This document shows positions 1,547 through 23,920 of a stretch of DNA of 64,000 bases, one piece after another. A program made the translations under genes and the position numbers. The notes below the pieces were generated by a model. That model was not told where the DNA came from, made no database searches, and saw only the letters and a program-made list of their open reading frames with translations. The stretch comes from Pyrenula massariospora (taxonomy: Eukaryota; Ascomycota; Eurotiomycetes; Pyrenulales; Pyrenulaceae): assembly GCA_021030905.1 (NCBI GenBank), contig JAGFMI010000023.1, positions 434,001-498,000 on the forward strand, written 5' to 3'. Numbering within the stretch: position 1 is the stretch's first letter; every line of letters starts with the position of its first letter.

Positions 1547-2649
1547 ATGGCGGACCAACCAAAGGGTCGCCTTGCTGGGAAGAATGCTATCATCACTGGA
1601 GCAGCTGGGTATGTCCATAGTTTTCACTTGTTATCTTGTGGTCTTTCTTAATTCTCGATATGCGGATACGGTATTTTCCTCATTTGAGCCCTTGTCTTTT
1701 GTAATCTCCCTCAGTCGATATCATTTCAGTTGAGCTTGAAGAACTATCATTGCGTGATCTACTTTCTACCATAGCCATAGCCCCGACACTTCCATCACAA
1801 CATGTCATTCATCCTCCTAATCCCTACAACCCTTTCTCTAGCTAATTGAACAATTCTTACCACGTCAGCGGCATCGGCCTCGAAACCACCATACTCTTCG
1901 CCCGCGAAGGCGCCTCCGTCCTAATGGCCGACATCTCCGCGCCAGCCCTCGAATCCGCCCTGGCCAAAGCCCGCGAACACGTCCCCCCCACCGCAACGAT
2001 CACCACCGCACAATGCGACGTCACCTCCGAAACCTCGGTACAATCCGTCGTCGAATCCCTCGACCCCACCGGCGGCGTCGACATCATGTTCAACAACGCG
2101 GGCATCATGCACGCCTTGGACGCCGACGCCATCTCCACCCCGGAGAAAATCTGGGACCTAACCCACGCCGTCAACGTCAAGGGCGTGTGGTACGGCAGCA
2201 AGCACGCCGTGCTCTCGCTCCGCCGCCACAACAAAAAGAACGGGAGCGTCATCAACACCGCCTCCGTCGTCGCGCTGCTCGGCTCCGCCACCCCGCAGCT
2301 CGCCTACACGGCCAGCAAAGGCGCCGTGCTCGCGCTGACCCGCGAACTCGCCATCGTGCACGCCCGCGAGGGCTTCCGCTTCAACGCGCTCTGCCCCGCG
2401 CCCCTCAACACCCCCTTGCTCCAAGACTGGCTGGGGGACGACAAGGAGAAGCGGCTCCGCCGCGAGATCCACTTCCCGACCGGCCGCTTCGGGGAGGCCA
2501 TCGAGCAGGCTCAAGCCGTGCTGTTTCTGGCGAGCGATGAGAGCAGTTTTGTGAATGGGACGGATTTTGTGGTCGATGGGGGGATGACCAGGGCGTATGT
2601 TACGGCGGAGGGGGGGGCTACGGAGGCGCCGAGGAATTTTGCGCGGTGA
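1547..2649 (+). CDS. Short-chain dehydrogenase/reductase (classical SDR)
   Basis: Two exons, 1547..1608 and 1869..2649, give 280 aa. The 260-nt phase-2 intron (GTATGT..CAG) falls inside the nucleotide-binding motif; joining restores TGAAGGIG near residues 17-24. Further SDR landmarks are NNAG (Asn about 97), a catalytic Ser in NTAS (about 153) and YTASK (Tyr about 167, Lys about 171). The C-terminal FVVDGGMT is typical of the family. The block NALCPAPLNTPLLQDW with PTGRFG resembles SDRs that oxidise 2-keto-3-deoxy sugar acids, but the substrate cannot be proved from sequence. It converges with the FucP-type permease gene and belongs to the putative catabolic cluster. GC content rises sharply in exon 2, with strong C/G third positions. 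The ATG at 1547 is the only in-frame start of exon 1. Confidence 0.92.
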
Positions 2650-2974: not shown

Positions 2975-4649
2975 TCAAACAGACTCAACCTTCTCCAACC
3001 CCCCCTTCTCCACACTCGTCGTCCGATACACCCCCTCATCACCCTCCACATTCCCAATCACACTCCCCTGCCGATCATGATACCCAATCTTCGTCTCCCG
3101 GAACCCATCCAACTCCCTCCGACACACGGTATTCAGATAGATCGGAAACACAAAGCTCACAAAGAACCCGCACAGCGGCACCGCCATGGCCTTGTGGTAA
3201 TCCGTGTGGTCGGCCATCAGGCCCGTCAGCGCGGGGAACAGCGCCCCGCCGCAGATGCTCGCCACGATCCAGCTGCTGCCGCGCTTGGTGTGCCGGCCCA
3301 GCCCGCGGATGGACAGCGTGAAGATGGTCGGGAAGATGCAGGACTCGAAGAAGAGCACAAGCGACAAGACGGCGACGCCGGCCTCGCCGCGCGCGCCCAT
3401 GGCCGCCGCGATGAAGATCATGATCATGGTCATGAAGAGCATGAGCACGAGGCGGGGCTTCACAAACATGAACAGGCCCGCGGCGGCAAAGCGGCCGATG
3501 GCGAACAGGCCCTGGCCGATGGCGTAGCGGTCCGAGGCGGCGGCTTCCGAGATGGCGGCGGATTCCTGCGCGTAGCGGATGAACTGCGAGGCGACGGCGA
3601 CCTGGGCGCCGACGTAGCAGAACTGCGCGGCGACGCCGAAGAAGAGCTTGTACTGGCGGCGGAGGGGTTTGTCCTGGTAGCCGGTCAGGTCGGAGCATTG
3701 TTCGGCCTGGAGGGCGAGGTCGGCGTCGGTGACTTCGGGGATCGGGGAGAAGAAGAAGACGACGGCGAGGACGAAGACGAAGGCGGCGATGCCGAGGTAG
3801 GTCCATTGGACTTTGGAGAGGTCGTCGGAGTTGGCGTCCTTGAAGAAGACGCGGGATGCGAGCAAGGGGGCGACGACCGAGCCGACGGCTTGGAAGGATT
3901 GGGAGAGTTCAAGGCGGAATTCTGAGAGGCGGGGTGGACCACAGGTGGCAATGAAGGGGTTTGCAGAGGTTTCTAAAGTGGAGAGACCGGAGCCGACTAT
4001 GAAGAGGGAGCCACAGAAGCCGCCAAAGGAGCGGTAGACGGCGCTGGGCCAGAACATCAAGGCGCCGACGCCGTAGATGCAGAGGCCGGTGATGAAGGTC
4101 CAACGATATCCGAATTTTCGTACAATCCACCCGCTATAAGTAAGTGGACCAATAAAGTACGCTCCAAAATAAGCGCCTTGAAGACCCCCAGCCTTTGCAG
4201 CTGTGATGTTCAACGATGTCTGAAATTTGGCGTTGAGGACGTCGAGTAACTGCTAGATTGTTAGATTGAGTTGGAATGATGAAAGACCGAGATGAATAGT
4301 GTTCAGCTATCTAAGAGGGGAAAGTTCTTATTTATAATAAGAGCTTCAGGCGACAGCCTTTGAATGTGAGATAATGAATGTGCACAGGGGACGGGTCTTA
4401 GTGAACAATTGAATGTAGTTGCTCTTAGATATATGAGTGACTTACCCCGTACGCAAATCCCCAAAGGAAGAAAAGTATGGTAACAAGCGTGATTGGGAAA
4501 ATGGATTGCTTGACAGTAAGAGCAGAGGCGCCAGTCAAGCCTTTGTTCGAGACAGATTTGCGATGCTGGTGCTGCATGGCTTCGACATTGGAAGGGCGGC
4601 GTTGTTGCAGCACTTCATCGATTTCTGGTTCTTCCTTCTTGCCCCACAT
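2975..4649 (-). CDS. MFS transporter, FucP (L-fucose/glucose-galactose permease) type
   Basis: Two exons on the minus strand, 4649..4446 and 4249..2975, are joined by a 196-nt phase-0 intron (GTAAGT..CAG). They give 492 aa with about 12 membrane segments. The first helix, SIFPITLVTILFFLWGFAYG, ends at the donor, and exon 2 resumes with LLDVLNAKFQTSLNIT. Then come GAYFGAYFIGPLTYSGWI, GAGLSTLE-like GSGLSTLETSANPF and CGPPRLSEFRLELSQSFQ. These are signatures of the FucP branch of sugar/H+ symporters, which act at the plasma membrane. The C-terminal tail is cytosolic and polar. No ATG lies between an in-frame stop and 4649, so 4649 is chosen; an extra upstream exon cannot be excluded. Fungal FucP homologues import hexoses and deoxysugars; the specificity here is unknown. 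The nearby SDR and FAH fusion suggest that the imported sugar or acid feeds those enzymes. Confidence 0.93.
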
Positions 4650-5566: not shown

Positions 5567-8500
5567 TTACAGGAATGCTCTTACGGCTTCCGCTACGCCG
5601 TCAGCGTCCTCGTACACGTGCCAATGGCCGACACCACTTATCACCTTCACGCTCGAGTTCCCGATTCTACCCTTCATCTTCTCTAGCAACGCTGGCGGAC
5701 TTACCTTGTCTTCTTCGCCGGTCACTAGCAGCGTCGGACACTGCAATTTCTCAAGCTCAATGCCCTCTTTCTTGGCCGTGCCTGCCAACGCTGTACAGCC
5801 CTTTGCATAGCCCTCAGGATTTTGCGAGCCAAGAGTCGCCTTCACCGCGCTGAACGCTACACATCTCTCCCTCTGCGTCTTGGAGCTAGTGCCAGCGGTA
5901 GCAACAGCGTCTGCGACGCCAGAACCTCGCATGCCGCTTCTGCGGACAGCTGCGGCGCGTTGGCGTTGAGCTTCTGCTGCTGTAGACGGCAGTGGACTCG
6001 GCGGTGGACCTAAGAGGATGAGCTTGGAAACAAGATGAGGATACCGGGTGGCAAATGTCAGCGCAACGAGACATCCCATCGAGTGTGCTACAAGGACTAC
6101 TCCAGAGCTAATACCCTTGCTCTCGGATATGCCGTGTAGATCTGCAACGTAGCTGTCGATCGAGACGACGGAGGAAGCCCTGGTAGGAGAGGCTCCGTGA
6201 CCCTCAAGGTCAGAGAGGATCAATCGGTATGATGTCTTCAGACCGAGCTGTGATACTAGAGGCTGGAAGAACTCGCTTGTTCCACCGAGACCGTGGACAA
6301 ATATCATGGGCGTATTGCCGCTTCCGATTTCTTCAACATAAAGGTCTTTGGATCCTATCTTTAAGAGACCGCTGCCACCACACGTAGGCTCTAGGTTGTA
6401 AGTCGGAATTGCTGTCAGTTGCGCGAGTTGTTCTGCTGTTGTGTTGTTAGGTCCCTGGGCTACGCGATTGCGTAGAGTGCCTAAGCCAGTGACGGAGATC
6501 TCGACAACGTCACCTGGCTTGAGAAACGAGGGAGGGTCCAGTCCAAACCCGACCCCAGCAGGGGTTCCCGTTGCAATAACGTCGCCTGCTTGCAAAGTTG
6601 TTCCTTTGGACAGTGTACTGACCAAGTTTGCGATCGAAAAGATCAAATCGTCTGTTGTACCATACTGTCTTTGCTGGCCATTTACCTTTGTTTGCACTTG
6701 AAGCTTCGTTGGTAAGCTTGAAGTAGGTACTGCTATTGGACCCATTGGGCAAAACGTGTCTCCAGACTTTCCAATATAGAATTGCTTATGATCTCGTTGT
6801 TTTTCCCGAGCCGTAACGTCGTTGATGATGGTGTAACCCCAGACGTGATTCATTGCCTCGTTCTCACTGATTTGAAAGCCTTGCCTCCCTATGATCGCTC
6901 CAATTTCGCCTTCATAATCAAGGGTCTGTGTGAAATCTGTATGCGGGAAAATGTCTTGTCCTGAGGCAATGATACTGGTGCTCCGTTTGGTGAAGATGAC
7001 TGGATGCGATGGTAAATCAACTTTGTCACTCGCATCATAGCCACTCTTGTTGAATTCCTTAGCGTGATCGAGATAGTTCTTCCCGACGCAGAGAATATCA
7101 CGACCGCTGAGAGGTGGGAGGATTTCGACCGCACTGAGAGGGACCTCCTCCCCACTAGCTATCATCTCTGTTCCCAACTCTATAACCTCGGCGAGGTTAT
7201 TCACTGGAGCTCCTGATGGCATGCTCAATGGCGTGATCATCGAATCTTCCAGGCTCAAGTGGCCAATGCGAGATCTCTGTAGCTCGTCCTTGTAAGCAAT
7301 GTAATTTGTCAAAGACTTTGGGATCGCTCCGGTGGGAGCTGCATCAGCTCTGAGATACTCTTCCTGAGATGCTTTATGAATTCTGCCATTAATCATAATC
7401 ACATTTAATTTGTTGTGATCTTGCAGCACCGCTATACGTTCGAGCGGATTTCCGTCGACAAGGATACAGTCAGCTAGGAAGCCAGGTCGAATCTTACCTA
7501 GCTCGTCTTCACGCATGAAAAGTTTCGCAACGCCAGCAGTAGCGGCAAGTATCGACTCCATTGGAGTAAAGTGAAGTAGCTTAACGAAATGCTCAAGATC
7601 TCTGGCATAGGTTCCATGCGGAGTCCAGGCAAAGCCATAATCACCTCCTGGTAGAACCGTGATTCCACGCTGATGCATTTCTCGGAGCACCTTCTTGGCG
7701 TTCTCAAATTCTCTCTTGTATCCCACTTTCTCAGCCTTGTTAAAGGAATAACCAAAGGGCTCCGCTTCATATAAGGTACAATAGAGCCAATTAATGCCCG
7801 GAGCAACCATGTGCTTAGACTTGTTTGCCTCCAACATGTCCATGCCCTCGGCATCTGTCCAGCTTGCGTGATATATAATGTCGACACCATGCTTTACGCA
7901 CATCTTCACAGAATCACGTGCTCGAGCATGCGCACATAACCTCTTGCCGTGCCGGTGAGCTTCATCAACGCAAGCTGCAGTCTCCTCGTCCGTGAAGTAA
8001 CAATCTTCTGCTGATCTCGTCTCACAAATCTCTTCTCCCGACATCGACAATTTGATGTTGTCCACGCCGAGATTGACGTGATGGCGGATAACCTCCCTCA
8101 TCTCCAAAGGCCCATCAGCAAAGGCCGTTATGCCACCAACGAGCTCTCCGTCCCGTCGTGCCATTTCTTTACCGTTGGCGAGATATCTAGGTCCAGGAAT
8201 ATCCCCTCGATTAATTGCATCTCGGATCACAACATCGAGTCGCTCCTTAGCACTGGCGGCACCATAGCACATGGTAAACCCAGAGTCAAGATATGTTTTC
8301 GCTGCGTGAGCAGTAACAAGCGTGTGTTCCTCAACCCCGAGTCCACCAAGAGCTCCAAGGTCTCCCTCGTTCCAAGTGAAGTGTGTATGCGCATCACCGA
8401 GGCCTGACATTAAGGTTCTCCCTCGACCCTGTATGGCCCGAACATTGGGATCTAACTGCAGGTGTTGGACATTTGGAACGTTGCCCACGTGTGCAAATCG

Positions 8501-9062
8501 TTCGCCTTCGATAAGAACATCGCCATGGTACGGCTCAGAGCCAGTTGAGTCGAGTATGTTCACGTCAAGAAATAGGATCTTCGACTCAGCGCGGGTGCCT
8601 GGCTAGACTTTTAGCAGGTCGTCGAGGGTAATATCTTATGGGCAGACCTTTCATGTGATAGGTAGGTGGCTTGAGCTTTGGGTCGAAATGGACATCGTCG
8701 TAGACACCAAGTTTTCGATGAGACTTCTCGGGGACTCCGTTGGGCTGATTGATACCATTGATACCATTGACAGCGTAATTAGTACTTGTGCTATCAACCA
8801 TTACTCCTGGCGCCATCATCGTAGGATAAGTACCAATACAGAATCAGTAACAAAATACTGGAAATGAAAAAGAATAAAGCGACACGGAGACAATTCAAAA
8901 ATTACCAAGAGCAATCCCTATCAGGTCACCTAATGTTAGAGGCTGATTTGGAGAAGACCGCTCGGATTGTAGGGCCATCAGAGGAAGTGTAGAAAGGCTC
9001 GATATCGCATAAAGCGTCATTACAATGCACCATGATGACCTCTGATCAGCTACGGAGCGCAT
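5567..9062 (-). CDS. Trifunctional fusion: amidohydrolase + fumarylacetoacetate hydrolase-fold + alpha/beta hydrolase
   Basis: The body is one uninterrupted exon, 8598..5567. Numbered from its first internal Met at 8563 (residues 1-998), it holds three enzymes. Residues 1-410 are a metal-dependent amidohydrolase: HTH (59-61), Lys in NIKLSMSGE, His in CAHARA and IIYHAS, Asp in PGGDYG. Residues 430-700 are an FAH domain: GKNYLDHAKEF, metal site DYEGEIGAIIG, GYTIINDVTARE, TGTPAGVG. Residues 720-998 are an alpha/beta hydrolase: FVHGLGG, DLEGHG, nucleophile Ser in AHSMG, Asp in TGEEDKVS, His in GVGHWH. Upstream exons 8806..8648 (49-nt intron, phase 1) and, less surely, 9062..8906 (GTAATT..CAG, phase 1) keep frame and give 1115 aa. 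The alternative is a start at 8819. Exon 1 contains a hydrophobic stretch. The three active sites look intact, so successive hydrolytic steps on one polypeptide are likely; substrates are unknown. Confidence 0.88.
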
Positions 9063-11196
9063 TTCTCCAATGATTTGTTCCTGACAGTTAGCAGTCAGCG
9101 GTTTGGTAGGGGTTTGGCCTTACTACCCCGCGTTCATTGAAAATGCGGGGGATTGAAAGGGTGGGGAAATGGACAAGTCAAGTGGAAGAGAAAGCAATCT
9201 CGGCTTTGCTTTTGGCCCATCGGCCGTCCATTTCGACTTGGAGTGAGAGACGTTAGCAGTCTAGGCCTCGAGGTTCTAAGCCTATCTAGATAGCAATTTG
9301 GTCTTTGCTTGGTCAGTGGCCTGCCATTCCACCAACACACATGAAATCTCATGTGGCACCCTACAGCATCAGCCGTCCAATAATTGTTGGCGAGCGACTA
9401 CCTTGATAACGAAGTATTGTGCGAGAGACATACTGCCCAAACGATAGCCTGGGACAAGGCTGAAACCGACATTAGAGTCATGCAAAGCTAAGGTGTGTTG
9501 GTTTGGCAAGATAAAAGCGTCCTTGGAAAACGGCCGTAAAGTCATATGTCCGCTTTCACGGCGTCAGGACATCGCCTTTCTGTCGACGTGAAACACTCGA
9601 CCCGAAGCAGAGGGGCGGAGAAAACATGACGCACGCAGGGTTCTTCGTGGGTTTGGTCGGTATACAACAAACCAATAAGCTGATCCATATACTCGGTAAC
9701 GAATATTTCTATGCTCGCCACTCTTATTCTCAAGATCCCACGTACTAAGCGGCGATTCTCTGGACATTACCAGATGGAACAATGTCAAAGTTGGGAGGCG
9801 CAGTCTACCTATGATAGCGTTCATGTGCAACGAGATGCTAAGTACTGAGGCGTCACAGCAGCCGTTTCGTAGTGAGAGCCGAGGTTTGAAGGGAGATTGG
9901 AAATATGCGATGACGGCATCCAGAGTCATTGCATCAATACCGCAAAAAGAAATGTTGCTGCTTGTCTACGAGGCTCCATGTTGATGGATTCCAGCAGCTA
10001 AACCTAAAATAGACGGCTTGGCATTTCTTTCTCATGTAAGATCTGGCCATTCATGAATTCATACTGTGTCCCCATCAGATCCTAGCAGAAAGACTTCCAC
10101 CAAATACTCTTAACAGAAGCTAGCCTCACAGCTTCATAGGTGTTGTTGACGAGAAGAGTGTTGGTGAAGATGCACAGGAATCACATGCTGGTGTAACGTC
10201 GGGGCCGCTCTCAGTCAACAATCCGTCACACAGCGCCTGCGAACAGGAGTTTGATGATCTCTGCACATCTACAGATCGTCGTTGAGATCCCGTATTCGTA
10301 CTTGAACCCCCAATTCTCAGACTGTCGCCCATCGGCTCAGGCGTCAGGCGCGGCTTACCATTCGCCGACAACAACCGGACAGCATACCTCAACCTGTCGG
10401 CAGGCGCCGGTTCGTTGGCCATAAGCTAGGTCTGTTTCTCTTATGGGGACGATAGACCATAAGACCCAAACCCAAACGGGTCGAACTGTTCTTTTCTGCG
10501 AGAAAAGAGGGTAAGTCCGGAGTGTCCAGATGTTCGGGGGCCAAAGGGGCTAGAGCCAACACCGCGGCACCTATAGGACGAAATGACTTGCATACAGACC
10601 CTTGGACCCTGCAATCGGATCCTCGTTTTCAACCGGGTCTTTTCTTCCAATCCAGACGAACCTAGCAAGCTCAATAAACGACGGCGACTCCGGGCCGCGA
10701 CCGCCCGCGGGCAGGGGGCTTATCCAACATTAAATATAGATTTAAACGATCTCGTGGAGTCATAGCGTCGGATGAAACGCATAGGGCGGCCTCGCAATGA
10801 AGAAGAGAGAGCGTCTCCTACCAAAGCGGTCATCACGTAAAACATAACAAATGATTGTGGTAGATGTGAGCTGGATAATTTTAGTAGCCATGTCAGCAGG
10901 TAGGTCCGTGCGGTATGCCCTGTGTTACCGGTTCATGTAGCATTACGTATAGTATTAGCTTAATCAGCCCAGGCAGGGACTTGAAACTTGGGCAAAGTTA
11001 TTTGTTTGGTACATTAGATACGTCATTAATCGTAAAACTATGGGTTGCTATTCAGGATCTCAAGCTGCCTGCCCACCCGGAGACCTGAGCTCGAGCCAAT
11101 TTTTGGGGTATCATAAAGTCATCGCAAAGAGGCAGCGTTATGCGAATAAGCCTCTAGTAAGAACGCTCGAGGGAGCTCAACTCCATGAATTTCGAT
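9063..11196. other. Gene-poor interval of 2.1 kb
   Basis: It contains only short open frames on both strands. The longest, 10126..10422 on the minus strand (98 aa), has no recognisable domain. The left end should include the promoter of the fusion-enzyme gene. I see no RNA gene or repeat here. Confidence 0.55.
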
Positions 11197-11601
11197 CTAG
11201 TCCTTCCAGATGCTCTTGACGGTCTCAGTGATGCTGATACCTCCAAATAACCAGTCATTGCTATTCCTTCCACATTGCATGACTGTTCCGGAGTTGCGTT
11301 TGATTTTTCTGCGAGTAGTTGGTCGTTCAGCGGACGATGTCGAAGACGTCGACATCACTGATATGGACGAATCTGTCCGCGATGGCTTTGCCGGTCGACT
11401 AGCTGGAGCTGTTGGAGATGTAGCCCGACGAGACAATCCAGGCCTCATAGACGGTGGGGAAGCGGTGATGATTGAGATCTCTCGGGGAGGCGACTTGGCC
11501 CTTTGCTTGGAGCCGAAGAATGATAGGCTTGTAGATGCCCTCGTCAACGAGGGTCGGGGATGGAATGGCATAGCCTTTGAGTTTGATGCTGTTGATGCCA
11601 T
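11197..11601 (-). CDS. Small conserved fungal protein with C-terminal CGRNSNDWLFGG motif
   Basis: A single-exon frame of 134 aa starts with ATG at 11601. The first 95 residues are basic, Ser/Pro/Thr-rich and probably disordered (SRRATSPTAPASRPAKPSR and similar). The C-terminus is compact: KRNSGTVMQCGRNSNDWLFGG followed by a short amphipathic end, ETVKSIW. I recall this C-terminal block in many otherwise dissimilar short ascomycete proteins of unknown function, which is the main reason to call the frame real. There is no signal peptide or membrane segment, so a cytosolic or nuclear place is likely. Overlapping frames on the plus strand (11210..11620) and in another minus phase (11399..11743) lack such conservation and are taken as shadows. 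Confidence 0.7.
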   Translation of the reverse strand: MASTASNSKAMPFHPRPSLTRASTSLSFFGSKQRAKSPPREISIITASPPSMRPGLSRRATSPTAPASRPAKPSRTDSSISVMSTSSTSSAERPTTRRKIKRNSGTVMQCGRNSNDWLFGGISITETVKSIWKD

Positions 11602-14600
11602 GATGCTTGATCGTAGCTAGGTATGATAATGCGTGAAGGATGAGGAGGAGGCGAAAAATGAGGCAGAGACCTGGAGACGGAAGTGGCGGTTGAAGATCAC
11701 AATGCGAGGCTGGCTCGGTGTCTGTGGTACAAACAAAATACAAACGGATGGCTTTGCAAATTGTATAGTTGGAAGATTATCAAAGGGGGACGTACGAAGT
11801 ATTTGAACTCGTTGAGGCCGCATCTTCTCACAACATCTGATGGTGGGGTATGTTGCATAACCCGGACGAATTAGGTGGGCCAGGGTACGTTTTCAGGTAA
11901 AGTGTCAAAACATAGAAACATAACGCCTGAACGAAACTCTACAATGATCGTGTGACGAGCCGAGGTCTTTCGCCGTCAGTCGCTAGAGCCACAAGGGGAA
12001 GAGGCTCAACTGTTTCAAAATACCAGGGTCCAACTCGGGTCCTGGATTTGGTTCTCGTTGGGCCCTGGATCTCACGCGAATCATCGGGCTACAACGGGAT
12101 GGGAGGGCCATAAGTGGGCTAGACTGGCGAGTTGCTCGTCTAGAAGCATTCAGCGGGAAAAGACACTGATTCGGCGGGGTAGGGGTCTGTTGTGCCTCAC
12201 CAACAACAGGATCTCACAGCGAAAAGTCGGCAGAGTTGGGGACAGATTCAGCGCATGTTGGACTTTGGTGAGCGTGACGCCGGGGAAACATCGGTCCGAC
12301 AAGGCCTTCCGTCGGCACCGCTGGATCGGTCACTCGGCCCACTCGACTGCTAGCTCTCGGTCCGCAGTCGGGCATTTATTCCTTTTGATTGATTCATTTC
12401 CTCCTTAATGTCGAGGGAATTCTGGATGTGCTTTCGCTATCTTGTTTGTTTAATAGAAATGGAACCGGACTTAAGCAAGCTCTTGGCCCGTTAATTTCAC
12501 GCCGCACGGCGAATCGCAAGTCATCCGGTATATGGGCGGGATGTGTGCAAGTTTTACTCCGTGACTGTATTCACTTTACCTGCCATTAATAAGCTACAAG
12601 TGCCAATGTAGATATCGGATCACGCTTTCCCTCCATTAGAAGTGATTTTCCCAAAGGCTCCAGCCGCGTCAAGGGCGGAACTCCCTTGCAAGATACGAGC
12701 AATTTTCCGAACGCGAATACCTCCGCTGCGCAGGAATTGCGCATATTTTCGCCTATTGTGCTTTGGATAACAGTTTCATGTAAAGAGCTCACGACTTACA
12801 GATCCGATCTTTTCCATCTCAAGCCAAAACCAACAGTGTCCTGGTCAAGTCATGGGCACGGGCATAGTGCAAGGAGATAGAAGACCAACCCTTTTTGCTA
12901 CCAAACTATCCTGCGTCTACCGCTTAATTCCCGTGTCCAAACTCCATTCAGCGGACAGTTGAGTTCATGAGACAGTTATCCACGAACTCCATTTGCTCTA
13001 AATGGCTCTAGAGGCACGCCTTGACCTACGGCCCCACGCTACAACTATTCACGGCTACCACATGGGGGCAGAGCGGAAACACCCAGATCATTCGCCCACA
13101 CCCAAATGTTGTCCATTTCGCTTCGGCTTTCTGTTCAAGGTATGTACCGAGTATCCAGTTTTTGAGGAGAGTTTTCAAAACCAAAAATTTTCCCAAGGGA
13201 CAAATTCCGAAAAGCGTTTCACACGGGAATCAAGATTTGACTGCAGCACCGTTATTTTGACACACCAACTTTGGCTATTGAGACCCCAAAATTAGGTCCA
13301 GCGCACTGTCCAGATTTTGATCCAGACTATTGTGGAGGCGTCTGCCCCAGCCAGTTTACACCTTAATCCTTGTGGACATGTTTTACAGAGGTAAGACACC
13401 AACCATTGGAAAGTTTACCCATTAAGGTTGGGTACTTGGCTCGGCACCTTTGAGCTTTGATACACGGCCTCATTCGTCTGAGTCTATTTACCAACAATTT
13501 AAAGCCAGAATGCGACGCTAGAATAATAGATCTTGTGGAACCATGTATGCAAATCGGCTCTCCAAAAATTGGGTTGCTGGCCCAATGGCTCGTCACACAG
13601 TTGATTTCGAACAACTTGCCTTGAGACGGTAAGGTGGAAAGTTTGGTCTCGTCTGCTACGGCCGGATTCTCAAAGTAAGCCTTCCAACTTTTTCCTAGCG
13701 TCAATTGCTTCGTATTCACCTTTACGTGGTCTCCAATGGGGCGTTTACCTAGTTGTCTTCTTGAATACGCTGCGGCCTCAGGCCTTTATCACATTCGAAC
13801 TTCTTAATCATCAATGAGGTGTTCGGAAGATCAAGAAAATGAGCTACACGTGTTTGCGAATAGATCGCTTTCACTTTGAATCCTGTCACTTCGCACGAGC
13901 GCCACCAAACCGCAACGTACCCTCTGGATGCAAGGAATTTGATTCCTTGGCGCTCCCTTTAGATATTGCAACATAGCGACGAAACATGAAGGCCAACGAG
14001 AGCGGCAAGTCAAGGCAGCAGATTTCAAAACAAAGTCTTGGAACCTCTATTTCCGCTAAACCATGGTCCTCTAGAATGTGGCTAGAGTATCGTGCTTTCC
14101 CGTTATTTGGTTCATAGGCACTTGATTGTCGGGGAGATTCTTGAACCTTAAAAGCAATACACGCGTTCGTCGCTATGTGAATCGTTGAACCAAGCTTTGG
14201 GGGGGAGGGGGGGGGGGGTTATTCATAATCCAGGGCATATGATGACGTTCTTGATCTGTCATTGACTGTAGAAAAGGCAGATAACTCGGAATGCAAGGCT
14301 AATTTTAGCTCAAAACGGTAAGGAAGTAAGGGCACTGTCTCCGGAAAGCCACTACCATGGGCTTCGTAAAGGTAGGACACATACGTTTTGCTTCCAGACC
14401 CTGCCATGGGGATCCGATAGCACATGAATTGGAATACCCGATATGGCACGCTGATGGAAAATCCCAACGGTGTATGATACTGAACCGATCTATTAATCAA
14501 TCGATCCGGACTTGATAGTTTGCGTACGCTTCGCATGCGGGCTAGGTAGCTGGGTTGAAATTGATCAAGAGCAGTGGTGGTACTTCAGAATTTTACCTTC

Positions 14601-14708
14601 GATGTAATAGACCAGGTATAGAAAGCATATGGAGTTATCTGCGAGAGTAGTGGCTTAATTAATTTTGAAAGAGTTGGTGTGCTCTATCGAGCATCGGTTC
14701 ATCTGCTA
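11602..14708. other. 3.1 kb interval without recognisable genes
   Basis: It has many short open frames in all phases but no domain, no splice-linked pair and no RNA gene. A homopolymeric G tract lies at about 14204..14218 (seven G, one A, then a longer G run). The sequence is not AT-rich and shows no long internal repeat. It may be decayed or purely regulatory. Confidence 0.5.
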
Positions 14709-14717
14709 AAGGACCTG

Positions 14718-14808
14718 AGGCTGGGTGACAGAAGTCGTGGCGCCGCCCTTCAAGCTCTTTAGGCCGATTATTAGCCGATACGAGGGCAGCAATTTCTGTC
14801 ACAAAGCC
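14718..14808. repeat. MITE-like inverted-repeat element, copy A (diverged)
   Basis: The left arm, CTGGGTGACAGAAGTCGTGG (from 14721), is matched in inverted orientation by GCAATTTCTGTCACAAAG (to about 14806). The arms share GTGACAGAAAT with copy B at 15182..15268. The element is about 90 bp with no coding capacity. The target-site duplication is not clear. Confidence 0.55.
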
Positions 14809-15181
14809 CCGACAGCCTCGACCTATGGGCAAGTTCCTAAGACTTGCTAGGCTTTGTTTCCCCACGCCCTAACTTTTGGCGGCCACGCCAAGCAGTGACA
14901 CAGTGCCACGAGTGCCTGCAGGTGTCCACCTACGTACCCAGCATCAACACTCACTCATGAATCTTGGCGGTTCATTGCACATCTATGTTACACCCATGCT
15001 GGTAACAATGGCGGCGAGGAAGGGAGGGGAGCGGTCTTTGAGGAGATGGATGTACGTTATGCCATCGTCTACGCTGACATCTCCACCTTACTCTTAGTCC
15101 CGCCCGGCCTCTCCCCCATGCTTGCACTGATGCCAAGTCGGGAGACCAGTTTCCGTAATCTGGGGAAAGTTTAAATCTGGA

Positions 15182-15268
15182 CTGGGTGACAGAAATCGTG
15201 GCCAATTGTTTTGGCGTGGTGCTGGGGAGCTTCTGGCAAAACAATCAGCCACGATTTCTGTCACCCAG
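15182..15268. repeat. MITE-like inverted-repeat element, copy B (near-perfect hairpin)
   Basis: The left arm 15182..15212 and right arm 15238..15268 are reverse complements over 31 nt with two mismatches; both outer ends read CTGGGTGACAGAAATCGTGG. The loop is about 25 nt. The same terminal motif occurs in copy A 370 bp upstream. Length and lack of coding capacity fit a small non-autonomous DNA transposon, or half of a larger foldback element. Confidence 0.65.
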
Positions 15269-15484
15269 CCTCGAATACCTGCCAACAGGGGCTACTGCAA
15301 AAGTTCCATAATCTCACCTACTCTCCCGCATGGTGTGAAGAATCTCTTCCATTGGGCTCTGTGGATACGGTCACTTGTATCGACTTGAGAGAACAAATTC
15401 CCTCCCTTGGGTTGGCCACGTTTAGACGTACGGACGCTCGTCTTCGCGCTTTGTCTCTCGCTTTACCTCCTCGGTGAACTCACG

Positions 15485-18723: not shown

Positions 18724-20672
18724 TCAACGAGGCTCTGCCTCTGCATCGGCAGCCACCTTCCTCTCTTTATCCATCTGCCCCATTCTACCTTGTTTCCCCG
18801 AGTATCCATTCGGCCCAAATCCCCTTCCCCTCCCGCCTCCACCACCTCCCCTCGCTCCCCTATACCCTCCACCGCCCCTTCCACCCCTCCCCCTCTCCCC
18901 ATTCCTACCTCCTCGATTCCCACCCGCCCCACCACCCCCCTTCCGATCCACCCTAAAATCAATCCTCTTCAACGGCCTCTCCACCCACTCCACCCCCTTC
19001 AACCCCAACCCCTCCCTCTCCCCCTCGGGCACACACCACCCCTGCCACACCCCCTGCACATCCCCCACCCCCCGCAACTCCTCCACCCACGCCCTAATAT
19101 ACTCTCCACTTTTATCATAATCAAACGCCTGCTTCACCGGATTAAACACCCGACTCTCCCCCCGCGGATCATTCCCCACCCCGGCCACGTACTGCCAGTT
19201 GCCCCAGTTGCTGCTCACATCGTAATCGATCAGGTTACACTCGTACCACTCGGCGCCCACCCGCCAGTCGAAGCCGAGGTGCTTGCTCCAGAAGCTGGCC
19301 ACGTTCTGGCGCGCGCGGTTGCTCGTGTAGCCCGTGTGCACGAGTTCGCGCTGGCTCGCGTCGATCAGGCCCGTGCCCGTCTCGCCGCGCAGGAAGCGCT
19401 CCAAGGCGTGCTTGTTTTCTGGGGAGGAGGAAGGATTTTTCCAGGGGTACGAGGCGTCATCGCGGAAGCCGGAGAGGCGGAAGAGGCGCGGGCCGAACTT
19501 GCGCGTGCACAGGCGCATGTAGTCGCGCCAGAGGAGCTCGAAGCGGATCCCCGCCGTGCCTTTGGTTTCGCCGGCGCCGTAGCCGTTGGTGTTCTTGTGG
19601 GCTTTCCAGGTCGCGGCGTCCGGGTGGGCGTTGTCGGCGTCCTCGAATGCGAGGAGGGCGGCGTGGATCTGGCGCGCGGAGATGCAGCCGAGCGCTAGCC
19701 AGGCGGAGAGCTTGGTGCTGAAGTCGAGGCCGAGGAGGCCGTTGCGGGTGTCTTTGTAGGAGGTCGCGGCGCCGGTGGTGAGGAGGTGTGTGAGGCGGGC
19801 GTGGGCCGTGGTGGAGCCGCCGGAGAAGGGGTGGGCGGATTTTGTGGGGGAGGGGTATGAGGGAGGATTGGAGAGCGGTGGGGAGGTGGTTAGGGGGGCT
19901 AGGAGGGAAGATTTGAGGGAGTCGAGGTCCGTGGGAATTGTGAAGGGGGCGGGTTGTGCGGGGATGTTGGTGGGGAGGGGTGGGAGCTTAGAGGGCGTTT
20001 TGAGGACTTTTCGAGGTGCGTTGCGGAGGGGTTCGACGGTCTTGCGGAAGGAGGTGAAGACATCGGGGAGGCCACTGGGTTTGGAGAATGGGAGGTCGCG
20101 ACTGTGGAATAGGATTAGTGTGTGGGTAGCAATTGAAAGGCCTAACCTTACTCGTCGATGTAGTATTTCTCGTCTATCCAGAGCTTGAACTCTTTTCCCT
20201 CGGCCTGAACAACTGTTTTGACTTCTCTCTCTTCTCTCTTTTCTTCCACGCCTTCTTCACTTGTCATCCACACACCCACAGCCTCGACATCGTCCTGCGA
20301 CTTGAAGGCCTCAAGCAAGTCTTTGGCGACTTGTCCTAGCAATCCTACCCGGATGCTCAAGCCCGAGCCAACGCCTTCCAGTGCACCTTTCAGGTCCCAT
20401 ACGCTCTCAACGATGAAATTTGCTCGGTGGGGCCCGCATCTCCAAAAATTCCCATGTTGTGATCGAGCTTCGGGGTAAGGTGAGCGGTCGTCGGATGAGG
20501 CCAGGAAACCTGATACTTCTATTTGCTGAGCAGGGAAGACATAGACTGGGAGGAGATGGGTGTATGGATGCTGTGACTGCGAAAAAGTCTTGCTAATTTC
20601 GTGAAAGAGTGGATTATCGGCGAGGCGAAGGTCTCGCCGCAAAAGATAAATGAGCACACGCTGTGACATCAC
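18724..20672 (-). CDS. DASH-type cryptochrome (CRY-DASH) with C-terminal RGG tail
   Basis: Two exons on the minus strand, 20672..20152 and 20101..18724, are joined by a 50-nt intron (GTAAGG..CAG, phase 2) and give 632 aa. The N-terminal photolyase domain begins SQRVLIYLLRRDLRLADNPLF, with WIDEKYYID followed across the splice by DRDLPFSKPSGLPDVFTSF. The FAD-binding half shows LSAWLALGCISARQI, FELLWRDYMRL, TGTGLIDASQREL, GYTSNRARQNVASF and WYECNLIDYDVSSNWGNW, all CRY-DASH hallmarks. The last 85 residues are Gly/Arg-rich with many RGG units, as known from fungal CRY-DASH proteins; the tail probably binds RNA or carries methylarginine. Family members bind FAD and MTHF, repair lesions in single-stranded DNA and act as blue/UV-A light sensors. 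Exon 2 is strongly GC-biased. The start at 20672 follows from MSQRVLIYLLRRDLR. Confidence 0.95.
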
Positions 20673-21935
20673 GATAGGGATTGGGTAGAAATGAAAAATT
20701 GTTCATGGACTGGAGAGAACACGGCGACGAGGAGGCATTAGAAGTAACGTCGCGAAAGGCAGTCTCATCTGGCACCTGACATGTTGGTCCCCTTAACGAT
20801 GCTGCAGTGCCAGCATTGCAGGAGGGCGGCAGACAGCCGCTTGACAGACATCCGCAAGCTAACGAAGGTCCTGGCGTCAGAGAAGGCACGGTTCACCAAC
20901 GGGAATGACATCTTAGCACAACAGCTAGAGATCTGTATCTCTCTGCTGTCAATGCATTACATGCGCAACAGCTCCCTCCGAGTGACCGGTCACGTAAAAG
21001 CGGTGTACCCACGCTGGAGCGGTGGTGGCAGGTCTGGTCGTATCCACGGTTCGTGAAATACGGCGCTAGACCGGATCAACGCCGAGGTCATTTGAAGCTC
21101 AGTCGAGAGGACGGCGGGCTCGCTTTGGCAGAATTCGGGCCAGCTGTTTGACGATTTAGGTCATGATGCCCTCACTTCGGGCAATTTGGAGTGTCTGGAG
21201 AACCGACATGTCCGGCGAGTCCAGACCAGCGGGAGACCGCAAAAGGCAACGGGTGGAATCTGAGTCGACGGTGTTGGCGTGAAGCAGGAACGGCGGCGGA
21301 CGATTGGCGAAAAACGATCTCGACTGTAAGACGTCAAGATCGCCTTCTGCGACAGCTGGGAGCCGACAAACGTGCATTAGCCGCGATTCATCCAGATCCG
21401 ATCGTCGGCTTTTCCGTCTTGGTAAATGACAGGGGACGCCATATCGGCAGACCGCAATTCGCCGTCACCAGCGTCAGAAAGTCCATCCAGACGATACATA
21501 ACGCGGTTTTTCCATGATAGGTGGGAATGCGAAATGGGAAATGGATGCCCCTTACCCCTCGCCGTCCGCTCTACATGGCCGTCGTACGGGTCGCAGACGC
21601 CCGCATGCTGAAAGCTTTCTACCTGAGTCGTGCAAAGCATTGGAAAAGCGATCCGCCACATGACATCTCAACCTTGGAAAAATCGACAGCTCTGCCAGTC
21701 AAGTACCACTGACACTTGCGTACCTTGAAACAAATTTTCCGAGTCATCGCTGCCGCTAGCCGCGTACGTGTTCCCCGACGACGCGATGCTACAGAGACAA
21801 ACCACAGATTGAAAGGAGCTCGCAACCGACGTGGCATGTCGGTGAGACTACGGCCGCGTTCCGATTACCCAATACGTTGTCTGATGACCAGATGATTGCT
21901 TTTAATATGTTTCTGCAGCTAAAAGCAGAATCTGT
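20673..21935. other. Intergenic region between CRY-DASH and glutamate decarboxylase
   Basis: 1.26 kb with dense short overlapping frames on both strands, for example 21191..21517 plus and 21377..21661 minus. None has domain content. The left end should hold the CRY-DASH promoter and the right end the GAD 3' UTR. Confidence 0.5.
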
Positions 21936-23920
21936 CTAACATACAGCGCGGTGTACTCCCTCCGACATGGGTCGCTCGACGCTCTGTGCTTTGTGCTTGG
22001 CATCTGTGCCTCTACTCTGATGTTGTTTCTCGACTGATGTCGCCCCAGGCTGGAGCATTGCAATGTCCACGGGATCAGATTCCATTAGTATCTGCGTGAC
22101 GGCGATGATGTCGGAGATCAGCCTATCAAGCAGGTCCAGAGACATGCTCTCTCGCACCACGACGCGCAAGATCTCCTGTTTTTCCTCCTTGGGCGGCAGC
22201 GGGTAGTCTGCTCAAAAGTTAGCACTGTCGCAGATTAATGTACACGTAACACACTTGGAATGATATATTGCCTCTGTCGGAGAAGGTTGCTGACGGCTTC
22301 TTGCTTGACGTGCGAATATTCCTTTTTAAATTCGTCTGAAAAGCAGAATGCCACAACCGGCAGGCCTGGATTGTAATCGGCCGACGTTTCATCCTCTGAT
22401 CCGAACACTGCATCCTTGGCACTCGACAACGAGTACTGTCCCCTCTTCCGATGTATGTCCGAGATGCATCTGTACCATCCGGTTGCTTCCAAGCTTTTGC
22501 TCAAGAGTCGAGCATTTGCCATGCAGTTCTCCATGATCGCGCGGTACCCACTGAAACCAAGATGGATGAGATTGTAATATTGTCCGATGATCTGGGCTCC
22601 TGGTCGAGAGAAGTTCAGCGTGTAAGACTGTTCTGTTCCACCAAGATAGTGCAGTTCAAAAATGAGATGCCTCGGAAGATAGGATTCATCTCGCCAAATA
22701 ATCCAACCAACCCCCGCATAAACGAGACCAAACTTGTGACCGGACGTATTGATTGACTTCACCCTAGGCAGCTCAAAATTCCTAAAGTGGATGTAAGTGG
22801 ACGCATTGGAACACCCCAGGAGTCTTGTGACTTGCCATTTGAACCCAGCCTTCGCATGCGTGAACGGGGCAATGAAGCCGCCTGAAGCCGCGTCGACATG
22901 AATTGGGATGTCAATGCCAGTCTTGGTCTCAAACTCGTCCAGAATTTTCGCTATTTCTTCAACCGGCTCATAATGTCCCGTGTATGTGCTGCCCAGAATG
23001 ACGAAGACACCAATTGTATTCTCATCAATGCTTTCTCGGACCAGCTCAGGATCCAAGCGACACCTACTCTTCTCGCTGACATCAAGAATCCGGGCTTCGA
23101 CGTCAAAATATCGGGCAAACTTTTCGAGTGCTACCTGAGCGTTCGCGCCCATGATTATATTTGGCTTCAGGGTATCTTTTCCGGCTGCTTGTCTCTTTTC
23201 TTGCCATCGCCGCTTCATCGCAAGACCGCCTAGGTGAATAGCCTCCGAGGAGCCGGTTGTCGCTGACCCGATTGCGGTTTCTTCTCGCCGAGCACCCCAT
23301 AGATTGGCAATAATGGAGATGCAACGAGCATGCATGTTCATCATGGCAGGATATCTGCCGGGCGTCAGCAGACTATCAAGTAGGTCTCCGAAGCAAAGGT
23401 CTTACTCATCGGCATCGCTCATGTTCTTACTGATGTTCTCAATGATGAGATCATTGGCTTCCCGCTCCATGTATGTTCCAACGAAGCTATCTCGTGTCAG
23501 CCTACAGTCTGAGTGCTTCGAAAATTGAGGACGACAATCACCTCGCCAGGTTGAGGTTAGGTTTCCCGTCCAGGTCAAGCTCATCCTTGAGCATTTGGTG
23601 AACCGCGTCGGCTGGGGCTCCATTGGGTGGTATCCTGTACTTCGGAATCTCCTGCCTGGCCGAGTAGCGGGAGGAGTAAGGCGTGACGGTGGAAACCAGG
23701 TTTCTATGATGAACGTGATGGTTCTGATGCTTTTCACCTCCGAGTCGAAGCTTCTCGATCAGATCTTCAGGGTCGATCTGCAATCACAGTCAATGAACCG
23801 GATCCCTAGTACGATGGCTAACGCATAGAAGGTAGGGCCACGGCGACAGCATATGCAATGGGATGTTAGGCTTTCAAATTGAACGGGGATCGATATACTT
23901 ACGTGGCGGGCTAGAGCCAT
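21936..23920 (-). CDS. Glutamate decarboxylase (PLP-dependent)
   Basis: Six exons on the minus strand: 23920..23903, 23777..23542, 23486..23406, 23354..22836, 22781..22255, 22207..21936. They give 550 aa. The reading phase closes at every junction and restores family blocks: NLNLASFVGTYMERE, DADEYPAMMNMHARCI, GSATTGSSEAIHLGGLAMKR, PIHVDAASGGFIAPF, FKWNFELPRVKSIN, SGHKFG (PLP Lys about 301), RQRQYIIPNYPLPP. The enzyme makes GABA from glutamate and supports the GABA shunt, acid tolerance and sporulation in fungi. Introns are 125, 55, 51, 54 and 47 nt; the 54-nt one has a GC-AG boundary (GCAAGT) and is open in frame. The first coding exon has only six codons (MALARH). The C-terminal 70 residues are polar and likely disordered. 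Confidence 0.95.

Follow-up and report, generated by a model that had tools for sequence, protein, structure and literature searches.

A predicted fungal protein joins three hydrolase domains that correspond, in permuted order, to a three-gene module of bacteria

Introduction

The eukaryotic proteins AROM and CAD are biosynthetic and are built of families other than amidohydrolases (AMH), FAH-fold hydrolases (FAH) and alpha/beta hydrolases (ABH), and AROM carries several pathway enzymes on a single polypeptide. CAD, too, carries several pathway enzymes on one protein (PMC3499355). A different route is known from the Starmerella/Wickerhamiella yeasts, in which bacterial operons for thiamine salvage and siderophore functions were acquired by horizontal transfer, and the main text of that report nowhere uses the words “fusion” or “fused” (PMC13376923). 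Here we describe a gene of the ascomycete Pyrenula massariospora, located on the minus strand of a 64,000-nucleotide stretch of contig JAGFMI010000023.1 (positions 434,001 to 498,000; this whole stretch is called the window), in which AMH, FAH and ABH domains follow one another. Like CAD and AROM it places several enzymes on one protein, and if it came from an operon as the yeast genes did, it differs from them in that the Pyrenula genes form one frame.

Taken separately, the three domains belong to known groups. Diketo acids are hydrolysed or decarboxylated by the FAH relatives, and the substrates of the ABH relatives are esters and lactones. The FAH domain has an E-E-D metal site, a His-Glu lid pair, a Lys and a Gln in common with acylpyruvate hydrolases and HpaG-type decarboxylases (8sky, 6iym, FAHD1). 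Carboxylesterases and 3-oxoadipate enol-lactonase (4uhc, 2xua, PcaD) share the fold and the Ser-Asp-His triad with the ABH domain, and the cog1228-type amidohydrolases (the Sgx9359b arginine carboxypeptidase 3be7/3dug, 2qs8, Cc2672 3mtw and the A. niger ochratoxinase 4c5y/4c60) share the fold and the metal-site residues with the AMH domain, although at only 21–28% identity in Foldseek alignments. Known activities of such AMH relatives are the removal of the C-terminal amino acid from dipeptides or N-acyl amino acids and the cleavage of ochratoxin (PMC11342369). The closest counterpart of the whole gene was found in bacteria, for example in Pseudonocardia dioxanivorans CB1190 (locus L023; labels of this form are ours) and on plasmid pMOL30 of Cupriavidus metallidurans (RMET_RS30010-RS30025), where the same three enzymes with the catalytic residues kept are encoded by three genes in the order FAH-ABH-AMH, whereas the fungal gene has one frame in the order AMH-FAH-ABH. 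A literature search for the fusion or the bacterial module returned no describing paper, a negative of little weight because its coverage leaves out the majority of subscription journals. The fusion appears to be a new combination of known parts, which points to a conserved bacterial module.

Results

Three hydrolase domains lie in one open frame

The minus-strand frame at 5570-8602(-) was stop-free over 1011 codons and was terminated by a stop at 5567. Three complete domains were found within it, all far above their Pfam cut-offs, namely Amidohydro_1 with 73.2 bits (cut-off 25), FAA_hydrolase with 227.6 bits (cut-off 23.9) and Abhydrolase_1 with 97.0 bits (cut-off 25.8). Each of them aligned over its own length with separate bacterial proteins, and in this alignment the inter-domain joints were about 20 and 30 residues long and showed no visible intron-like insert. 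The codon-usage score of the frame was above zero in 46 of 49 segments, both linker regions included, and another frame outscored it in 7 of the 49; the codon table was compiled from 15 further frames of the window, some of which are unproven as genes. At the 5′ end of the frame no ATG was present in register with the bacterial AMH start. A candidate upstream exon (8819-8648), when spliced in frame to the long exon, gave a protein of 1067 amino acids with a single terminal stop and no internal stop, and the gene probably starts in this exon, with 1067 amino acids as its predicted product. Its donor, GTCTGC, is uncommon among fungal splice donors. The predicted gene has the following parts (window coordinates).

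8648..8819 (-): predicted first exon of 57 codons and one further base, giving the N-terminal extension MMAPGVMVDS...YHMK; based on splice signals and the open frame only
8599..8647 (-): predicted intron of 49 nt, GTCTGC...AGCCAG; called solely from the splice signals and the reading frame
5567..8598 (-): exon 2, which holds the three domains as well as the stop codon, inside the 1011-codon open frame and supported by the coding profile
7373..8598 (-): AMH domain (PF01979, E = 2.9e-20)
6443..7372 (-): FAH domain (PF01557, E = 1.8e-67), preceded by a linker of about 20 residues
5570..6442 (-): linker of about 30 residues, then ABH domain (PF00561, E = 1.8e-27)

A first-pass annotation of this DNA had placed three hydrolase domains in one minus-strand exon free of stops and introns, and this anatomy was borne out by the frame, by the linker alignment and by the three Pfam families that it had named. 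Given the predicted intron, 8598 is the first base of exon 2, so that the boundary drawn there earlier agrees with the gene model; the predicted first exon further upstream had been overlooked. When the full-length protein was searched against its own genome (37.8 Mb in 33 contigs), a single match was obtained, and nine further matches were to single domains with 24–41% identity.

The catalytic residues are retained in every domain

The residues were compared with those of the bacterial copies from 39 loci carrying the full module (described below), after leaving out L021, which is a near-copy, and pieces with a stop. The AMH metal ligands H71 and H73 (HTH), K183, H224, H244 and D320 were invariant in 38 of 38 bacterial rows. 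In FAH, the lid residues His103 and Glu106, the metal ligands E154, E156 and D185, and Q192 and K202 were invariant in 34 of 34 rows, the domain retaining DYEGE plus the third acid. The ABH triad Ser121, Asp245 and His273 was invariant in 37 of 37 rows and occurs with AHSMG (all in domain numbering). The AMH ligands align with those of 3be7. Thus, the earlier claim that each domain keeps its catalytic residues holds.

Among solved structures, the sequence relatives of AMH were 3be7 and 2qs8 (E = 1.7e-34), those nearest to FAH were 8sky (E = 2.1e-72) and 6iym, and ABH was related to 4uhh (E = 4.3e-22). AlphaFold2 models were built for AMH and ABH individually; a full-length alignment with the separate bacterial proteins misplaced the ABH rows. 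The AMH model had a mean confidence (pLDDT) of 81.8, with values below 50 in loops 75–80, 107–115 and 322–330, and its best fold matches in Foldseek were 2qs8, 3feq, 3be7 and the ochratoxinase 4c60. The ABH model had a pLDDT of 89.9, its sole segment below 50 sitting in the linker, and it ranked the carboxylesterase 4uhc best, followed by the feruloyl esterase 7dq9 and the enol-lactonase 2xua. The fusion protein reached none of the NCBIfam cut-offs among the 25 models listed of 35 matched, and this includes the FAH-type families. AMH scored 178.3 bits against the Xaa-Pro dipeptidase model (NF051886; equivalog cut-off 500), FAH scored 154.7 bits against 2,4-didehydro-3-deoxy-L-rhamnonate hydrolase (NF053535; equivalog cut-off 500), and ABH scored 110.9 bits against 3-oxoadipate enol-lactonase (PcaD, TIGR02427; equivalog cut-off 255.85).

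Bacteria carry the three enzymes as adjacent separate genes

Relatives of AMH, FAH and ABH were found as three adjacent separate genes in Actinomycetota, Pseudomonadota and Bacillota, soil bacteria among them, in some cases on plasmids. The order over 47 bacterial loci was FAH>ABH>AMH in 39, ABH>AMH with FAH further downstream in one, and ABH>AMH in three, while four had AMH alone. Ten of these loci (L082-L091) had been chosen on the strength of a partner gene seen in a smaller locus, and both L020 and L021, which have identical match coordinates and identities, are counted in the 39. FAH was absent from L084, L086 and L089; the contig of the latter two ends soon past ABH, and their FAH may have been cut off by it. 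None of the 39 FAH>ABH>AMH loci had fused module genes, a stop separating the genes in all of them, and the fungal order AMH>FAH>ABH occurred in none of the 47. The fungal order can be derived from the operon order by cyclic permutation; as a conjecture, it would arise if the genes were duplicated in tandem and the ends were then lost.

A scan of genome contigs with AMH as the sole query gave 30 loci, of which 28 were actinomycete records (63–66% identity), one was from an alphaproteobacterium (45%) and one from a metagenome-assembled genome of Verrucomicrobia (43%). FAH and ABH lay directly upstream of AMH on the same strand in 27 of these 30, the exceptions being L034, L035 and L038. A divergent upstream protein of one cluster, which reads like a GntR regulator, was called in 19 of the 30 by a simple gene caller. 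In 15 of the 30, the same caller also placed a small protein downstream of AMH (for example L009:11342-11785), and the one member scanned had DUF1636, a type of product that we take to resemble a small iron-sulphur or metal protein.

AMH also matched 31 plasmids, and the module was present in six of the seven plasmid regions examined, those of Corynebacterium occultum, Azospirillum argentinense, Pseudomonas oryzihabitans, Paraburkholderia caledonica, Cupriavidus metallidurans pMOL30 and Alicyclobacillus dauci; the Rhodococcus opacus region had AMH only. All six modules include an annotated GntR or FCD-domain regulator, which in A. dauci lies between FAH and ABH on the opposite strand. A DUF1636 gene is located between ABH and AMH in A. 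argentinense (L040). The C. occultum plasmid carries a second FAH gene beside the module (L039:5244-6131), flanked by two GntR genes.

Several alphaproteobacterial loci (L037, L082-L088) add genes for ATP-binding cassette (ABC) transporters and for UPF0261 (Tm-1-like), TIM-barrel, flotillin-like and SRPBCC proteins; most of these names were read from sequence starts, and only UPF0261 and the ABC ATPase were scored (in L037). In L082:8559-17372 the module is split as ABH, AMH, other cluster genes and FAH last, and a second divergent AMH is present in the locus. In the fungal genome, UPF0261 gave one match on another contig (C33) and is therefore unlinked to the fusion, and DUF1636 gave no match, in a search whose control query likewise matched nowhere.

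The frequency of AMH was estimated in genomes not chosen for having partners, with the partner search limited to flanks of about 1.5 kb. At E <= 1e-80, AMH was present in three of 296 actinomycete genomes (the query genome G001 included), all three with both partners, and in 21 of 289 alphaproteobacterial genomes, of which nine had ABH (five of these also FAH) and one had only a distant FAH (26%).

Trees place the AMH domain in one clade with actinomycete copies

The trees were built without 19 nested or duplicate loci and without tblastn pieces that had stops or covered under half of the query; eight AMH rows were additionally left out of the AMH tree, and four FAH rows and one ABH row out of the later trees. 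The fungal AMH was 60–66% identical to the actinomycete copies and formed one clade with them (support 100/99). In the best tree it stood beside L091 and L039 (82/90), and its placement as sister to all actinomycete copies was not rejected (p 0.36). The identity and the clade together therefore point to a bacterial source of AMH. Its grouping with three of the fungus’s own amidohydrolases was also tried and was rejected (p-AU 0.013).

The FAH domain fell into a 26-row set of operon copies (94/95), where it was paired with a long Alicyclobacillus branch, and into a 35-row operon set (96/91) once the Alicyclobacillus row was removed. The ABH domain fell into a 30-row set (92/92). The FAH and ABH trees are compatible with a bacterial source and are no proof of it.

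The GC content at third codon positions (GC3) of the fusion gene was 0.50, and that of seven other frames of the window was 0.41–0.86. Actinomycete genes typically have high GC. Since the value lies within the range of the other frames and is unlike that of a high-GC actinomycete gene, contamination is unlikely and any transfer was not recent; taken together with the likely intron, it argues against bacterial contamination. We infer that the module is of bacterial origin, most likely from actinomycetes.

Neighbouring genes in the window

The following frames were recognised in the neighbourhood of the fusion gene.

2978..4252 (-): FucP-type major facilitator superfamily (MFS) transporter frame, possible partner (PF07690; L-fucose:H+ symporter 3o7q, E = 1.7e-49; GC3 0.81)
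1846..2646 (+): short-chain dehydrogenase (SDR) frame, possible partner (PF13561, E = 9.7e-54; GC3 0.86)
18727-20702 (-): DNA photolyase-type gene, with FAD_binding_7 and DNA_photolyase frames
22238-23401 (-): pyridoxal-dependent decarboxylase frame, by domain match

The MFS frame scored 214.5 bits against TIGR00885, below its cut-off of 280.4. The permease and the SDR could be part of the pathway of the fusion, although their GC3 values, which top the range of the seven other frames and greatly exceed that of the fusion, speak against it. About 6 kb upstream of the fusion gene (9000-15388) contains no frame of at least 170 codons, and a HET gene, of a kind that suggests a filamentous ascomycete, is also present in the window.

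Discussion

We consider it likely that the gene encodes one multifunctional catabolic enzyme, an end-to-end fusion of the bacterial FAH, ABH and AMH module; the putative enzyme is probably cytosolic. Because three bacterial phyla encode the separate relatives in neighbouring genes, we infer that the three enzymes act in one pathway, and the fungal gene may be read as a “Rosetta stone” for a catabolic module conserved among bacteria. The first-pass annotation had already proposed a single multifunctional enzyme serving one pathway, a view that the side-by-side bacterial genes strongly support, and it had missed both this bacterial counterpart and the permuted order. Its chemistry, in which an amide is opened, a diketo acid is cleaved and an ester or enol-lactone is hydrolysed, agrees with the closest relatives of known structure for each domain, the substrates and the order of the steps being conjectural.

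The arrangement suggests that the three enzymes act in sequence to degrade one compound. AMH, being of the N-acyl-amino-acid/dipeptide carboxypeptidase and ochratoxinase type, would cleave an amide adjoining a carboxylate, ABH would hydrolyse an ester or lactone, and FAH, with its His-Glu lid pair and E-E-D metal site, would cleave or decarboxylate a 2,4-diketo (acylpyruvate-like) acid to give products for central metabolism. Fusion may have replaced the bacterial polycistronic mRNA and would yield the three activities in equal amounts. An organic acid or amide that is taken up from outside and broken down would be in keeping with the regulators and transporters that surround the bacterial module. 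We further propose, tentatively and with slightly less than even confidence, that a complete catabolic operon passed from bacteria into a filamentous fungus and became one order-permuted polypeptide, a second solution for a polycistron beside the conversion into separate genes in yeasts, and that the module is an undescribed mobile degradation pathway in several bacterial phyla.

Several observations weigh against this account. The AMH-FAH-ABH fusion was seen in one genome. The FAH and ABH placements are weak and on long branches; FAH pairs with the distant Alicyclobacillus copy where long branches meet, and without that row its position among the operon FAHs is unsettled. Identity to actinomycete copies is lower for FAH (46–57%) and ABH (35–41%) than for AMH, and this greater divergence could reflect a separate source or faster change. 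Also, 11 of the 21 alphaproteobacterial genomes with AMH had neither partner close by; AMH outside the module is thus common, and AMH homology by itself does not imply the module. A mixed origin, in which AMH alone came from bacteria and the fungus joined it to FAH and ABH genes of its own that served the same pathway by chance, would accommodate the long branches, and grouping FAH with the fungus’s own FAH (p 0.40) or ABH with its own ABH (p 0.31) was not rejected; the fungus’s own ABH (L003) even shares the 30-row set with the fusion ABH, on a long branch. We nevertheless regard a mixed origin as unlikely, as the best trees place both domains with operon copies, the fungus’s own FAH (L002) is 36–40% identical to the fusion FAH against up to 58% for operon FAHs, and a chance assembly of the same three families is improbable.

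The adjoining FucP-type MFS and SDR raise the alternative of a non-phosphorylative 6-deoxy-sugar route, in which FAH would split a 2,4-diketo-3-deoxy sugar acid into pyruvate plus lactate and a sugar lactone would be opened by ABH, and the top NCBIfam match of FAH among the 25 listed of 35 was indeed the rhamnonate hydrolase. That match stays far below its cut-off, 8gsr, a rhamnonate hydrolase of known structure, comes no higher than ninth, an amide-cleaving AMH would have no obvious role in the route, no sugar-acid dehydratase was seen among the neighbouring genes annotated in the seven plasmid regions, and the MFS and SDR need not belong with the fusion given their GC3, so we hold the sugar route to be quite improbable. 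It is very doubtful that one or two domains are structural passengers in a protein with a single activity; activities can be lost in multidomain fusions, but the catalytic positions checked are retained in every domain. An artefact of gene model or assembly, with three separate genes wrongly joined, is scarcely credible, even for a prediction made from the sequence of a single genome, when 3 kb run without a stop, the coding signal extends across both linkers, the domains lie end to end and the composition is inside the range of the other window frames. The gene order in bacteria differs, and the fusion is therefore not a mis-joined bacterial contig.

Read as a multifunctional enzyme derived from the bacterial module, the fusion unites in a single pathway three hydrolases whose annotations are generic, and an orphan, partly plasmid-borne module of bacteria becomes directly testable, as a single expressed fusion protein should carry all the pathway steps. 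Because related amidohydrolases detoxify ochratoxin, one may speculate that the substrate is a natural product or another amide of practical interest. If the operon origin is true, the gene would be a clear case of a transferred operon that was kept working in a eukaryote through fusion.

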